Shown: one piece after another, positions 3,378 to 23,515 of the stretch | Layout of the letters: each line of letters begins with the position of its first letter | Position numbering within the stretch: position 1 is the stretch's first letter | Position numbers and translations under genes: made by a program | Notes under the pieces: model-generated | What the model was told of the DNA's origin: nothing | What the model saw: only the letters and a program-made list of their open reading frames with translations | The model's database searches: none | Assembly (NCBI GenBank): GCA_021805205.1 | Contig: JAJZFV010000002.1 | Location: 124,001 to 188,000 of the forward strand | Reading direction: 5' to 3' | DNA: 64,000 nucleotides | From: Actinomycetes bacterium | GTDB lineage: Bacteria > Actinomycetota > Acidimicrobiia > Acidimicrobiales > Acidimicrobiaceae

Positions 3378-3818
3378 ATGGGTCGACGCATAAGTACATA
3401 TTTAAATTTTGAAGGGACCTGCGAGGAGGCTTTTAGCTTTTACGCCAACGCCTTCGAAGTCAACTTCAACTCGCAGATTGACCGCTTTAGCGGTCTCTCG
3501 CTTCCCGAAGGTGCTCCAAACTTTGACCCATCGGAAGCGAATTTAGTCCTCCACACTCAACTCGAGATAGTTCCGGGCCATCTGATACACGGCACTGACA
3601 TGCTCAAGTCCATGGGTCACGAGTTGCGAGTCGGAAACAATACCACTATCAGCATTGACTTTGACGACAAAGAAGATCTCGATCGGGTCTTCAACGCCCT
3701 TTCACTAGAATCCACAGAACGCGTCGATCCTATTGTCCAAATGTGGGGCGCATACTGGGCGGTGCTTCTAGATCGGTACAAGATCCGTTGGATGTTCAAC
3801 GCCCCTTTAAGCAAGTAG
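3378..3818 (+). CDS. VOC-superfamily PhnB/YjdN-like protein
   Basis: A 146-residue single-domain protein opening with ISTYLNFEGTCEEAFSFYANAF, the usual start of PhnB/YjdN-type VOC proteins (older label: 3-demethylubiquinone methyltransferase-like). It continues with HTQLEIVPGHLIHGTD and the paired beta-alpha-beta pattern ending in WGAYWAVLLDRYKIRWMFN. Members bind small ligands or metals; few have a proven reaction, so no substrate is assigned. It stands alone, converging on the GNAT gene downstream, with an inverted repeat between the two. Confidence 0.82.
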   Translation: MGRRISTYLNFEGTCEEAFSFYANAFEVNFNSQIDRFSGLSLPEGAPNFDPSEANLVLHTQLEIVPGHLIHGTDMLKSMGHELRVGNNTTISIDFDDKEDLDRVFNALSLESTERVDPIVQMWGAYWAVLLDRYKIRWMFNAPLSK

Positions 3819-3849
3819 CGACGCTTTCAAAGACAAGAATTCTCGATAA

Positions 3850-3888
3850 CGAAGGTACACCTCCGAAGCGGTCAGACGCGTACCTTCG
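3850..3888. terminator. Inverted repeat, possible terminator between convergent genes
   Basis: Arms CGAAGGTAC (3850-3858) and GTACCTTCG (3880-3888) form a 9-bp stem, extendable with a bulge, around a 21-nt loop between the VOC and GNAT genes. A weak T-run follows on the + strand. The long loop makes terminator activity uncertain. Confidence 0.4.
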
Positions 3889-3915
3889 GTTTGAGAAGAT
3901 TTTGAAGTAAGTGAC

Positions 3916-4362
3916 CTACAAATCTCCCTCACTCTTAGGGCTATAGCGATAGACGTTGGTCTTTCGAAGTTCAAATCCCTCCCTAACATAGAGTCGGTTC
4001 GCGGCCTCGCGATCGGGACGAGAGGTTAGGTCGATGCTCTTTGCACCTCTGGCAGAGGCGATCTCGTTGGCCCTCTGGACTAGCAGAGCGCCGACTGATT
4101 TTCCTCGGGCGCTCTCATCTACGACGACGTCTTCTATCCAAGCTCGAATACCGGTCGGGATACGAAAAACTACGAGAGTAAGCATTCCAACAGCAGTATT
4201 GGCATCGTCTCTCGCAACAATCAAAGTCGCATCGCGATCGGCGATAATCTCCGATAGATTGTCTTTTGACATAGGTCCAGATGATCGAGACAGCTGCGGA
4301 ATCAAACGATTGAGCTCCTCAAGCAGTAACTCCGAGAACTCTTTAGCTATTTCAATATGCAA
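3916..4362 (-). CDS. GNAT-family N-acetyltransferase
   Basis: An acetyltransferase of about 148 residues. The acetyl-CoA pyrophosphate loop reads DESARGKSVGALLVQRAN, preceded by the beta-4 strand RAWIEDVVVDE and followed by the C-terminal AANRLYVREGFE signature. The acceptor is unknown. The start is set at TTG 4362 because a GGGGGA lies 8 nt before it; an upstream TTG at 4380 is also in frame but would place that Shine-Dalgarno inside the gene. It stands alone downstream of Nei2 on the same strand. Confidence 0.85.
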   Translation of the reverse strand: MHIEIAKEFSELLLEELNRLIPQLSRSSGPMSKDNLSEIIADRDATLIVARDDANTAVGMLTLVVFRIPTGIRAWIEDVVVDESARGKSVGALLVQRANEIASARGAKSIDLTSRPDREAANRLYVREGFELRKTNVYRYSPKSEGDL

Positions 4363-18441: not shown

Positions 18442-18468
18442 TTAGCACTCTCAATACTAGAGTGCTAA
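18442..18468 (-). promoter_or_regulatory. CIRCE operator (HrcA binding site) of groEL
   Basis: TTAGCACTC at 18442-18450, nine bases, then GAGTGCTAA at 18460-18468: an exact match to the CIRCE consensus TTAGCACTC-N9-GAGTGCTAA. It lies 28-54 nt upstream of the groEL start, in the untranslated leader or over the promoter. HrcA bound here represses groEL until heat shock. No hrcA is in the window. Confidence 0.97.
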
Positions 18469-18511: not shown

Positions 18512-18793
18512 CTACCTCGAACCGCCCGCAACTGCGGGAACAATGGAGATGACTTGCCCCTCTGAGACCGGGGTGTTAGAACCATCTAAAAAGCGGACAT
18601 CCTCATCTGCAAGGAAGACATTGACGAATCGCCTAATTGCACCGGTTTCGTCGAAGATTCGATCCTGAAGCGTAGGAAATTGGGTTCCGAGGTCTGCCAG
18701 TGCCTCTCCAACAGTGGAGCCTGATACCGATATCTCAGATACACCCTGTGTGAGGCTACGTAGTTGGGTAGGTATACGGACGCTAACGGTCAT
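18512..18793 (-). CDS. CysO/MoaD/ThiS-family sulfur carrier protein
   Basis: A 93-residue ubiquitin-like protein: VSVRIPTQLR, GSTVGEALADL, IRRFVNVFLADEDVRFLDG, and a C-terminus VPAVAGGSR. It resembles M. tuberculosis CysO closely in the RFVNVF..DEDVRF segment and the PAVAGG end. Such proteins are thiocarboxylated at the terminal Gly-Gly and donate sulfur to a PLP enzyme. Here two residues (SR) follow GG, so trimming by a JAMM-type peptidase would be needed. It follows the threonine-synthase-like gene by two bases and shares its riboswitch, pointing to sulfur amino acid synthesis. Confidence 0.85.
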   Translation of the reverse strand: MTVSVRIPTQLRSLTQGVSEISVSGSTVGEALADLGTQFPTLQDRIFDETGAIRRFVNVFLADEDVRFLDGSNTPVSEGQVISIVPAVAGGSR

Positions 18794-18795
18794 TT

Positions 18796-20037
18796 CTAAC
18801 TGTTCCTTTGCTCATTAAGAAATTGAAAAAACTGGTCAAGCTTTGGTTCGATGGTGATTGTAGCTTGAGTCGTTGGAGCCATGGCTTCTACGGTCTTTAG
18901 ACCATTGCCGGTAATGTAGGCGACCGTCTTTTCACTCTTACTGATTACGCCTTCGCGCACCAACTTAACAAGCGTTGCAATCGTCACACCACCAGCGGTC
19001 TCGGCAAATATACCCTCAGTGCGGGCAAGCAGCCGAATTCCATCCAGAACCTCTTCATCGGTGACCGAGCCGAATCCCCCGCCGCTTTTTCGCACTACAT
19101 CGAGTGCGTAATAGCCGTCGGCTGGGTTTCCTATAGCTAAGGACTTAGCGATGGTATCGGGCTTTACCGGCCTGATTACGTCGCTCTTTGAGGCAAATGC
19201 AGTTGCAACTGGAGAGCAGCCTGCTGCCTGAGCACCACTTATCTTAACGCTGGGCTTGCGATCGAGCAATCCGACACGGTGAAGTTCGTCAAAGCCCTTG
19301 TAAATCTTGGTCAACTGACTACCTGAAGCAACAGGAACTACAACGTGATCGGGAGAGTCCCAACCCAATTGCTCTGCCACTTCGAAAGCAAGTGTCTTTG
19401 AACCCTCAGAGTAGTAGGTTCGGACGTTAACGTTTACGAATGCCCACTCTGGCTCTTCAGATGCGATCTCGGCGCAAAGACGATTCACGTCGTCGTAGTT
19501 ACCGTCTATAGCCACTACGTTACCGCCGTATACGGCCGTGGTTATGATCTTGGCACGCTCAAGATTCGCAGGAACAAAAACATAGGACTCCATATTTGCC
19601 CACGCTGCATGAGCGGCAACCGAGTTTGCAAGGTTGCCGGTGGATGCGCACGCCGCTATCTTTAGCCCAAGTTCGCGAGCCTTGCTCAAGGCTACCGAAA
19701 CAACCCTGTCTTTGAAGGAGCCAGTTGGATTCAATGTGTCGTTCTTGATCCATAGCTCTTCTAGCCCTAGGTAATTTCCTAATCTCTCTGCCCGTACCAA
19801 CGGAGTAAAGCCCGCTCCCAAAGAGACGTAATCGGTAGATTCAACCGGTAGCAGCTCGCGGTATCTCCACATATTGTTCGGTCCTGCTGCAATCGACTCA
19901 CGAGATACTTTGGAAGCAATAGCGTCGTAGTCGTACTTTACCTCGAGGGGGCCGAAGCAGAATTCACAGACGTGTAGGGCCTTTGCTTCATAGCTCTTAC
20001 CGCACTCTTTACATACGAGTGCAATGACGTTAGACAT
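18796..20037 (-). CDS. thrC: Threonine-synthase-like fold-type II PLP enzyme
   Basis: 413 residues. An N-terminal zinc-ribbon-like segment (C9, C12, C24, C27) precedes a fold-type II PLP domain with the Schiff-base lysine K109 in NPTGSFKDR, phosphate-binding STGNLANSVAAHA and C-terminal ITGNGLKT. Standard annotation is threonine synthase, making threonine from O-phosphohomoserine. The SAM-I-type riboswitch directly in front and the CysO-like gene two bases behind are unexpected for threonine synthesis. They raise the possibility that O-phosphohomoserine is instead converted to homocysteine with carrier-bound sulfide. Start is ATG 20037 with GGAGGA 7 nt upstream. The fold is certain; the reaction is open. 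Confidence 0.85.
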   Translation of the reverse strand: MSNVIALVCKECGKSYEAKALHVCEFCFGPLEVKYDYDAIASKVSRESIAAGPNNMWRYRELLPVESTDYVSLGAGFTPLVRAERLGNYLGLEELWIKNDTLNPTGSFKDRVVSVALSKARELGLKIAACASTGNLANSVAAHAAWANMESYVFVPANLERAKIITTAVYGGNVVAIDGNYDDVNRLCAEIASEEPEWAFVNVNVRTYYSEGSKTLAFEVAEQLGWDSPDHVVVPVASGSQLTKIYKGFDELHRVGLLDRKPSVKISGAQAAGCSPVATAFASKSDVIRPVKPDTIAKSLAIGNPADGYYALDVVRKSGGGFGSVTDEEVLDGIRLLARTEGIFAETAGGVTIATLVKLVREGVISKSEKTVAYITGNGLKTVEAMAPTTQATITIEPKLDQFFQFLNEQRNS

Positions 20038-20046
20038 CTTTATCCT

Positions 20047-20133
20047 CCTCATCGCTCGGGCGTTGGCACCTTCTTCGCATAAAGCGGTTGCCGCGGCGTC
20101 GTAGGGCCCGTCCCTCGACCGCTCTTGATGAAA
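20047..20133 (-). promoter_or_regulatory. SAM-I-clan riboswitch upstream of the thrC-like gene
   Basis: Read on the minus strand, the leader has the S-box core in order: P1 TTTCAT, AAGAG, P2 arm GCGG, kink-turn GAGGGA, GGGCCC, a GA-containing return arm to GCCGC, GGCAACC, a short P3 (CGC-TTTAT-GCG), AAGGTGCCAA, a minimal P4 (CGC-CCGA-GCG) and P1 closing ATGAGG. Each block lines up with B. subtilis yitJ, but P3 and P4 are very short, like the SAM-I/IV variant group. The P1 closing strand contains the GAGG of the thrC ribosome site, 10 nt before its ATG. SAM binding should therefore block translation. No terminator follows the aptamer. Confidence 0.88.
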
Positions 20134-21293: not shown

Positions 21294-22694
21294 ATGAACT
21301 CATACATCATCGTTTCCAATCGGGGTCCAGTATCTGCGAAGAGATCGCAAAATGGTCAGGGCATTGCGGTAAGCAGAGCTGGTGGCGGGCTAGCATCAGC
21401 AATCAGTCCTTTAGTCCACAATGACCTTGCGAAGTGGCTCTTCCCCATATCAAACGACTTGGAGGTTGAAGCCTTCGAGGCCGGAACGCTGACCCAAGGA
21501 GATTCAAACCTAATTCCGGTTCCTGTCCCTCAAGGCGTACACCATGCCGCCTACAACGAAGTTTCAAACAAGGTCCTATGGTACCTACTGCATGGAATGT
21601 TTCCTCTTACCAGGTCGCCAAAGTTTGATACTCAGTTCTACCTCGACTGGAAGAACTACAGTGAATTTTCTGAGCTGATTGCAACTGCTATTGCCAAAAT
21701 TGCCCCAGAAGGCACCAAGGTACTTCTCCAGGACTACCACATGTTTTTGGTGCCCAACTATCTCCGAAAACTTCGAGACGATATCTCGATTTCACTTTTT
21801 CTACACACTCCATTTTCATCGGCATCGGAGTTTGAGGTTCTTCCCGAGGAGGTTCGCAACCAGCTCCTTGAGTCAATTTCGCAGGTCTCAAATATTGGCT
21901 TCCATGCGAGTCGCTGGAGGGATAATTTTCATGAGGTTTACCTTCGCTTTGCACCCCAGTTGAAGGTGCCTAATCTCCACGTCAACCCACTCGGCACCGA
22001 TATCGAAGACATAACCTCTTCAGCAAATCGTGAAGTTGTCACTACCGAGCGAGCAAAGATTGCGGAAATAGCAGCTGGAAGAAGGATTATCGCCAGAGTC
22101 GACAGGATGGAGCCATCTAAGAACATACTTCGCGGCATTGACTCGGTCGTCGAACTATTTCGCTTCTACCCCCACCTTATGAGATCCGTAATCCACATTG
22201 CTAACTGCTATCCAAGCCGAGAAGCACTCGATGACTACACCTCCTACGCCAAGGAGGTAGAGGATAAGATCGAAGAGTCGAATGCATACCTCAAAGATCT
22301 AGCTTCACGTCTAGGGCTAGTTTTACCAACTGACCCGATCTACAAATTCACCGAAGACAACTTTGCACTATCGCTCGCGCTGCTCCAAGAAAGTGACGTT
22401 TTGCTAGTAAATCCAATTAGAGACGGATACAACTTGGTAGCAAGCGAGGGACCCCTCATCAATCAACGCAATGGCGGCCTGGTGCTATCGAAAAATGCAG
22501 GAATAGCGGAGGTAATTGGGGATCGAGCCAACTTGGTCAACCCATACGACATCCGAGAGACCGCTCTTGCCATGTTTTCAATACTTGACCAAAGTGAGCA
22601 GAATCGCGCCATACGCTATCAGGATTTGGTTCAGGAGCTAAAGCAGCGCAACCCAGCCAAGTGGCTACAACAGCAAATCTCATGGTTTGAGTGA
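21294..22694 (+). CDS. otsA: Trehalose-6-phosphate synthase-like GT20 glycosyltransferase
   Basis: A 466-residue GT20 enzyme expected to join a nucleotide-activated glucose to glucose 6-phosphate. Recognised: VSNRGPVS, GGGLASAI, LLQDYHMFLVPNYLR, HTPFSS, NPLGTD, donor-phosphate binding RVDRMEPSKNILRG, and PIRDGYNLVASE. It differs from E. coli OtsA in the glucose 6-phosphate region (WYLLHGMF where OtsA has the WPAFHYR type segment). The trehalose-6-phosphate phosphatase gene is directly convergent 17 bp away, which supports trehalose synthesis. Donor preference (UDP-, ADP- or GDP-glucose) is not visible. Confidence 0.88.
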   Translation: MNSYIIVSNRGPVSAKRSQNGQGIAVSRAGGGLASAISPLVHNDLAKWLFPISNDLEVEAFEAGTLTQGDSNLIPVPVPQGVHHAAYNEVSNKVLWYLLHGMFPLTRSPKFDTQFYLDWKNYSEFSELIATAIAKIAPEGTKVLLQDYHMFLVPNYLRKLRDDISISLFLHTPFSSASEFEVLPEEVRNQLLESISQVSNIGFHASRWRDNFHEVYLRFAPQLKVPNLHVNPLGTDIEDITSSANREVVTTERAKIAEIAAGRRIIARVDRMEPSKNILRGIDSVVELFRFYPHLMRSVIHIANCYPSREALDDYTSYAKEVEDKIEESNAYLKDLASRLGLVLPTDPIYKFTEDNFALSLALLQESDVLLVNPIRDGYNLVASEGPLINQRNGGLVLSKNAGIAEVIGDRANLVNPYDIRETALAMFSILDQSEQNRAIRYQDLVQELKQRNPAKWLQQQISWFE

Positions 22695-22711
22695 TCGGTA
22701 GCGACAGTCTT

Positions 22712-23515
22712 CTACTCCAGAAAATCAGAGATCACGGTGGCGAGTTGGACTTGGTCCTCGACGATCAAGTCCACAACTCCTCCTACCAAATCCTCGGTCA
22801 CGCTGCTTCCCCTAACGAGGACTGTAAAACCCTTAGGTTCTTCAAGATCTGCCACCACTTGGAAGGCTTCGACGTCACCGAGATCATCCCCCGCGAAAAA
22901 TATCGCCTCAAAGGCACCTGCGAATGAAGCGATTGTTGTGCCCTTGGTAGGTACGCCAACTATCATCACCTCAAAGACCATCTTGCCTCCGTGTAACTCG
23001 AGCATGTCGAGACCAAGTTCTTCAAGGTTTTCGACGATCCGATCTCGAATCACTTCCATCTGTGATGGATTTGAACGAAAGTGATACCCAGTCGACGTGC
23101 CTTTCTCTTCGATAAAACACCCCTCGGGCATAAGCAGCGCCATCGATAGTTCAAGGCTCTTGAGTTGCTCCAGCGCGCTTGGGTTCAATCGATAGGTGCT
23201 CGTTACACCACCATCCAACGTTCCCCTCTCGATGCCATACTTTCCAAAGATCTCAACTGGCCACTTGGCGGATTCGAAGACGACTTTGAGCTTTTCACGC
23301 AAGAAATTTACGGGTCGACCAGATATCACTTTGATGGTTGCCAGATCCGCCAGAGCACTTAGCGGCTCGAATAAGGCTGGGCTGACGGTTGCCATCGAAG
23401 GTTCGTCGACGATAGGTGATAGCGTTCCGTCAAAGTCGAATACGAAACACGGACCCTGAGGCTTGTTCAGTAAAGCTTTGAAAAATCTCCTCTTATCGTC
23501 TACCGCGTAAGGCAT
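22712..23515 (-). CDS. otsB: Trehalose-6-phosphate phosphatase (HAD family)
   Basis: A 267-residue HAD phosphatase. Motif I is FDFDGTLSP, motif II VISGRP, the Lys motif lies in GTSTGYHFR/PTKGTT, and motif IV is FAGDDLGDVEAF. The cap region KYGIERG is typical of OtsB. It removes phosphate from trehalose 6-phosphate to release trehalose, a compatible solute and stress protectant. The gene faces otsA tail to tail with only 17 bp between, so the pathway pair is split over opposite strands rather than forming the usual operon. It may share a transcript with the LytR_C gene upstream. Confidence 0.93.
   Translation of the reverse strand: MPYAVDDKRRFFKALLNKPQGPCFVFDFDGTLSPIVDEPSMATVSPALFEPLSALADLATIKVISGRPVNFLREKLKVVFESAKWPVEIFGKYGIERGTLDGGVTSTYRLNPSALEQLKSLELSMALLMPEGCFIEEKGTSTGYHFRSNPSQMEVIRDRIVENLEELGLDMLELHGGKMVFEVMIVGVPTKGTTIASFAGAFEAIFFAGDDLGDVEAFQVVADLEEPKGFTVLVRGSSVTEDLVGGVVDLIVEDQVQLATVISDFLE

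Follow-up and report, generated by a model that had tools for sequence, protein, structure and literature searches.

A SAM-I riboswitch and a probable homocysteine-forming metM-metO pair in an Acidimicrobiaceae genome that also carries metY-metX behind a SAM-IV riboswitch

In the window, i.e. the whole 64,000-nucleotide stretch of Acidimicrobiaceae DNA analyzed here, a SAM-I riboswitch directly precedes a gene for a threonine synthase-like enzyme and a gene for a ubiquitin-like sulfur carrier, and we consider it very probable that this locus is a SAM-repressed metM-metO operon which would make homocysteine from O-phosphohomoserine and the thiocarboxylate of the carrier, MetO. The initial annotation had proposed the same chemistry, which remains the best reading, very probably right, and fits the MetM/MetO route as far as the accessible part of PMC12172450 describes it. 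Its further suggestion that the locus resembled an undescribed pathway does not stand: a novel Streptomyces homocysteine synthase, MetM, was reported in 2024 (Hasebe et al., doi 10.1128/aem.01247-24, as cited in the accessible part of PMC12172450), and in S. albulus a SAM riboswitch lies upstream of metM and a carrier gene, metO, exists (same source). Thus, the pathway, having already been published, is not new in kind.

The SAM-I (S-box) aptamer occupies positions 20134-20046 on the minus strand and was matched by Infernal over the full Rfam model RF00162 (1-108), with a covariance score above the gathering score (69.7 vs. 44.4 bits, E = 3.3 × 10−14); no second RF00162 match was reported in this 2.62-Mb assembly (89% complete; G000 in the order sample described below). 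The S-box core motifs that the initial annotation named in the leader of the thrC-like gene are present, and its boundaries for the locus, 18512-20133, proved accurate to within 1 nt. The folding energy of the leader was not lower than that of shuffled sequences (z = −0.44) and the fold predicted for the leader does not reproduce the complete S-box structure; support for the putative riboswitch comes from the Rfam match. A Shine-Dalgarno sequence, AGGAGG (20049-20044, minus strand; located by sequence and Rfam alignment), is separated by 6 nt from the ATG at 20037, which lies 8 nt past the 3′ end of the riboswitch, and four of its six bases belong to the 3′ strand of P1 (20053-20046, minus strand; Rfam alignment). 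Thus, to judge from the alignment, a closed P1 should block translation. The metM start appears best placed at ATG 20037; the alternative ATG at 20052 was rejected, sitting as it does within the P1 3′ strand, with AGGAGG preceding 20037 instead.

The metM-like gene (20037-18796, minus strand) encodes a 413-amino-acid pyridoxal phosphate (PLP) enzyme of the PALP/threonine synthase family, as assigned from the open reading frame, Pfam and NCBIfam matches, the tree and individual residues (304 bits against TIGR00260 thrC, cut-off 167; 311 bits against PRK08197, cut-off 303). The codon of Lys109 (19711-19713, minus strand), in the motif NPTGSFKDR, aligns with its counterpart in this motif of the T. 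thermophilus enzyme, and we take it to be the PLP-binding residue. Separated from the metM stop codon by 2 nt, the metO-like gene (18793-18512, minus strand; open reading frame and Pfam/NCBIfam matches) encodes a 93-amino-acid ThiS-family sulfur carrier (51.3 bits against Pfam ThiS, cut-off 22.5; 58.8 bits against SAMP1, slightly below the cut-off of 60). The arrangement read from the sequence in the initial annotation, a thrC-like gene followed two bases later by a ubiquitin-like carrier ending in GG-SR, is therefore borne out by the TIGR00260 and ThiS matches. The MetO C terminus is VPAVAGGSR, so that trimming would be required to expose Gly-Gly. Window metM thus has both an adjoining carrier gene and an upstream SAM riboswitch, and no damage is seen in either reading frame, the riboswitch or the catalytic motif. 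Compared with the related locus L015, metM has a pN of 0.032 and a pS of 0.841, with synonymous sites saturated; the gene appears to be under strong constraint and its protein little changed. Upstream is a gene of the glycerate kinase family, and downstream of metO is groEL (recognized by eye), immediately preceded by a CIRCE-like inverted repeat, TTAGCACTC-N9-GAGTGCTAA (window 18442-18468). Trehalose-synthesis genes, namely a glycosyltransferase family 20 gene on the plus strand and a trehalose phosphatase gene on the minus strand, occupy window positions 21294-23515.

The initial annotation doubted that the enzyme was a true threonine synthase, and proposed a tree of ThrC proteins. In a quick maximum likelihood tree of 55 rows (drawn from 30 of 80 contig loci and 9 of the 29 order-sample loci from other genomes), 41 MetM and 14 ThrC sequences are split by a branch with SH-aLRT support of 100, although long branches (four ThrC rows and Nonomuraea MetM) make the deep placement unsure. 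At six positions that we take to lie near the substrate (88, 134, 155, 157, 160 and 188 in T. thermophilus numbering), a residue count that took in all 29 order-sample loci from other genomes found L, Y, N, R, Y and S in 61 of 61 MetM proteins vs. T, F, S, N, R and N in 10 of 10 short ThrC proteins; window MetM lacks the canonical ThrC residue at all six, carrying L, Y, N, R, Y and S. Neither pattern holds at all six positions in four full-length ThrC-like proteins, so that these positions alone do not define function. Together with the separate thrC described below, the distinct clade and the fixed residue differences support the view that MetM is probably not the housekeeping enzyme.

To place the locus in context, 99 genomes of the order were compared. 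MetM, counted at 63% identity or more, was found in 47 genomes at 49 loci (split matches in G082 and G090 were merged by coordinates, one of two G010 fragments was dropped, and weaker matches of 36-44% identity in G005, G044, G052, G056, G089 and G094 were not counted). MetX was scored by NF001209, because no control genome reached the TIGR01392 cut-off, and MetY only above the TIGR01326 cut-off. MetM and MetX co-occur in 4 genomes; 43 have MetM only, 46 MetX only and 6 neither, an exclusion with Fisher p = 7.9 × 10−17 when genomes are treated as independent and descent is ignored. For MetM and MetY, the corresponding numbers are 5, 42, 42 and 10. Of the 61 families, 27 have MetX only, 25 MetM only and 3 neither; the mixed ones combine MetM-only genomes with genomes carrying both (3), MetX with neither (2) or MetM with neither (1), and MetM-only and MetX-only genomes never share a family. 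These observations suggest that MetM may be the usual homocysteine route in about half of the order. MetM and MetX nearly exclude one another across the order sample, and this exchange goes beyond what the literature that we found describes.

SAM control of the gene pair, as claimed in the initial annotation, gains support from the same sample: RF00162 matches lie directly upstream, on the same strand, at 48 of the 49 MetM loci (including G028:C62, with 43.7 bits slightly below the gathering score), the exception being a partial MetM match in G068 (query 103-408). This order-wide search, run with stricter filters, gave 68 RF00162 matches, 20 of them away from MetM loci; one genome without a MetM match, G004, has MetX and MetY, and there SAM-I precedes an adjacent metY-metX pair. 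Of the 47 MetM genomes, 42 also have a separate ThrC-like gene at E = 1 × 10−20; none was found at that threshold in G010, G014 (99% complete), G025, G036 and G037. Each of eight further genomes of named loci, including Nitrospira defluvii, has one or more ThrC-like matches in addition to MetM. G025 and G028 each carry two MetM copies, every copy with its own upstream SAM-I match.

The second thrC that the initial annotation proposed to look for was found in the window's own genome, directly after a hom-like gene. A 488-amino-acid threonine synthase-like protein, below every thrC cut-off, is encoded at L005 1201-2667 (C51 of this genome). A metY-metX pair lies on the same contig as the window, and a SAM-IV riboswitch (RF00634, 58.1 bits vs. 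a gathering score of 38; L008 1187-1297, C40) lies upstream of it, with metY starting at 1483. Thus, two routes appear to be placed under different SAM riboswitch classes, SAM-I before metM-metO and SAM-IV before metY-metX, and MetM is not the sole homocysteine route of this genome. The idea of a methionine route without metX and metY accordingly survives for the order, where MetX is absent in 43 of 47 MetM genomes, but not for this genome. The initial annotation had counted a complete metX-metY route combined with the lack of any other thrC as evidence against its reading; the former is present, but so is the separate thrC. Elsewhere in the genome are cysK-, cysE- and trpB-like genes (by eye) and two more ThiS-family carriers above the cut-off, of which one is MoaD-like and the other sits among thiamine-type genes (by eye); none of the ThiS-family matches is near metY-metX. 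One ThiF-family E1 above the cut-off, with a rhodanese domain, is a candidate activator of MetO, and one JAMM-family protein is a candidate trimming peptidase.

Besides this genome, MetM and MetX occur together in G069, G082 and G090. SAM-IV precedes metY in G082 as well; in the fetched stretches of G069 and G090, no SAM-class riboswitch above the gathering score was found near metY-metX. In G082, which belongs to the same family, neither metM nor metO has an unbroken reading frame (L159, G082:C46), possibly owing to sequencing error. Genomes with both routes may either serve separate sulfur supplies or be replacing one route by the other. That a single genome has two homocysteine routes behind two different SAM riboswitch classes is beyond what the literature that we found describes.

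The best 80 of 576 contig loci represent Actinomycetota, Nitrospirota, Nitrospinota and Chloroflexota. At 77 of them, metM is followed by a carrier bearing the end motif [VI]PA[VIM]AGG, and at many of these loci the carrier gene overlaps or almost touches metM; the motif was missed at L061, L063 and L083, L061 having a carrier with a damaged end. Infernal identified SAM-I at actinobacterial loci and at the Dehalococcoidia locus L094; no SAM-I was found at L051, L061 and L063 or at the seven Nitrospirota loci scanned (L033, L034, L067, L071, L074, L078 and L083). The remaining Nitrospirota loci were checked by an S-box core pattern only, which missed five Infernal-positive loci (L017, L062, L087 and L094 by name, Nonomuraea lying outside the pattern scan). 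In Nonomuraea, an actinomycete like Streptomyces, SAM-I, MetM (53% identical) and MetO are consecutive. A Guanidine-I riboswitch was observed at a related locus (L018 6650-6753). At L061, a T-box (3792-4090; RF00230, 102.9 bits) precedes metM-metO, and sulfite reductase-like, TusA-like and AprA-like genes follow (by eye). Its specifier is possibly AUG (Met), in a register that we assume to be that of the glyQ T-boxes, and its UGGU implies that residue 73 of the tRNA is A, as suits Met rather than Cys. The specifier codon is placed 1-5 nt before the conserved GAG in the accessible part of PMC2494555, and a strict reading of this spacing would yield UGC (Cys) or other codons; the L061 reading was kept out of the evidence for the MetM route.

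In the mechanism that we propose from these sequences, MetO would be trimmed to its Gly-Gly end and adenylated by an E1-like enzyme, and the thiocarboxylate would form; MetM, a divergent ThrC paralogue, would generate a PLP intermediate from O-phosphohomoserine, the MetO thiocarboxylate would attack it, and hydrolysis would yield homocysteine for methionine. The 2024 work of Hasebe and colleagues is said to give the MetO thiocarboxylate and O-phosphohomoserine as the MetM substrates. Plentiful SAM would bind the SAM-I aptamer, P1 would close over the Shine-Dalgarno sequence, and metM and metO would stay untranslated. Alongside, MetX-MetY would provide a second route, from acetylhomoserine and sulfide, with its own SAM-IV riboswitch.

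By its published description, as far as accessible, the S. albulus system is alike in its ThrC homologue, neighboring sulfur-carrier gene and upstream SAM riboswitch, and unlike in that the window genome also has metX-metY behind SAM-IV. With ThrC (PDB 1uim, 6cgq, 2zsj and 2d1f), MetM has in common the fold family, the PLP lysine motif and probably the substrate, but it falls into a separate clade with six fixed changes and has an N-terminal cysteine-rich (CxxC) segment and a carrier neighbor. The Wolinella HcyS system, reportedly described by Krishnamoorthy and Begley in 2011 as a thiocarboxylate route in which MetY acts on acetylhomoserine, likewise obtains homocysteine from a protein thiocarboxylate, whereas the window enzyme is ThrC-like and not MetY. 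A system of the HcyS type was also considered for this genome and rejected, there being no carrier gene near its metY. Mycobacterium CysM/CysO similarly joins a PLP enzyme, a thiocarboxylated carrier and a phosphorylated amino-acid substrate, but makes cysteine from O-phosphoserine and belongs to a different branch of the PLP family (PMC12910592, accessible part).

Observations that count against the MetM reading include the genome's own metY-metX, the broken G082 pair, the riboswitch-free Nitrospirota homologues, the five MetM genomes in which no separate ThrC turned up at E = 1 × 10−20, the four ThrC-like proteins with neither residue pattern and the threonine activity of a Microcystis homologue. 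The last, 51.6% identical to S. albulus MetM and adjoining a metO-like gene, formed threonine from O-phosphohomoserine in vitro, also deaminated threonine, and produced no more than an unidentified peak near methionine; it did not raise methionine in cells and has no SAM riboswitch, according to the accessible part of PMC12172450. This activity, together with the NCBIfam threonine synthase name assigned above the cut-off, would suit the view that the window enzyme is another genuine threonine synthase and that the carrier and riboswitch are present for some other reason; given the separate thrC beside hom, SAM-I at 48 of 49 loci with the exclusion of MetX, and the fixed differences from ThrC, we find this very improbable. 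It is somewhat less improbable, albeit still quite unlikely, that the enzyme is a homocysteine synthase using free sulfide in the cell, with MetO merely assisting or serving another enzyme. Na2S was used to mimic MetM activity (PMC12172450, accessible part, citing Hasebe), but the same-motif carrier at 77 of the best 80 of 576 loci, across several phyla and in many cases overlapping or almost touching metM, argues against this.

A carrier ending in Gly-Gly plus two residues and a JAMM peptidase recall CysO, and both features occur in this genome. A cysteine-forming pair of the CysM/CysO kind is nonetheless the least credible of the alternatives: the enzyme is of the threonine synthase family, unlike CysM, cysK- and cysE-like genes (by eye) lie elsewhere, and SAM control and the exclusion of MetX point to methionine. 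The alternative that the pair does make homocysteine but has become redundant since metY-metX arrived, and is being lost in this lineage, seems unlikely, although it deserves more weight than the others. MetX also occurs in 4 of 47 MetM genomes, and metM and metO are broken in G082; however, the window frames, riboswitch and catalytic motif are intact, and non-synonymous change relative to L015, which was compared for metM only, is low. A metM-metO operon making homocysteine remains the reading that we prefer.

In G032, another genome of the same family, metO and a SAM-I-preceded metM stand in a row between a groEL-like and an otsA-like gene, and a ThrC-like gene lies elsewhere; no MetX match at E = 1 × 10−20 and no MetY above the cut-off was found there. 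Acidimicrobium ferrooxidans DSM 10331 was listed as having none of the known homocysteine routes (Price et al. 2018, PMC5764234, accessible part). MetM/MetO is a direct candidate for this missing route, and our literature search, to which most subscription papers were out of reach, returned no paper linking MetM/MetO to this organism. More tentatively, and with less than even confidence, we suggest a broader picture in which the window genome would hold two parallel homocysteine synthases with two sulfur currencies, a protein thiocarboxylate for MetM and free sulfide for MetY, each behind its own riboswitch class, SAM-I over the metM-metO ribosome site and SAM-IV upstream of metY-metX. The routes would be alternatives across the order, in this family one would be giving way to the other by way of genomes that have both, and MetM/MetO would also be the missing route of A. 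ferrooxidans.

Where metM is annotated as thrC, methionine synthesis can look missing although it is present, and MetM/MetO offers an answer to the gap noted for A. ferrooxidans in 2018 (PMC5764234, accessible part). The order-wide exchange between MetM and MetX would widen the Streptomyces finding to an entire order. A genome that combines the two routes, under two SAM riboswitch classes, is a natural setting in which to test why a cell would retain both.
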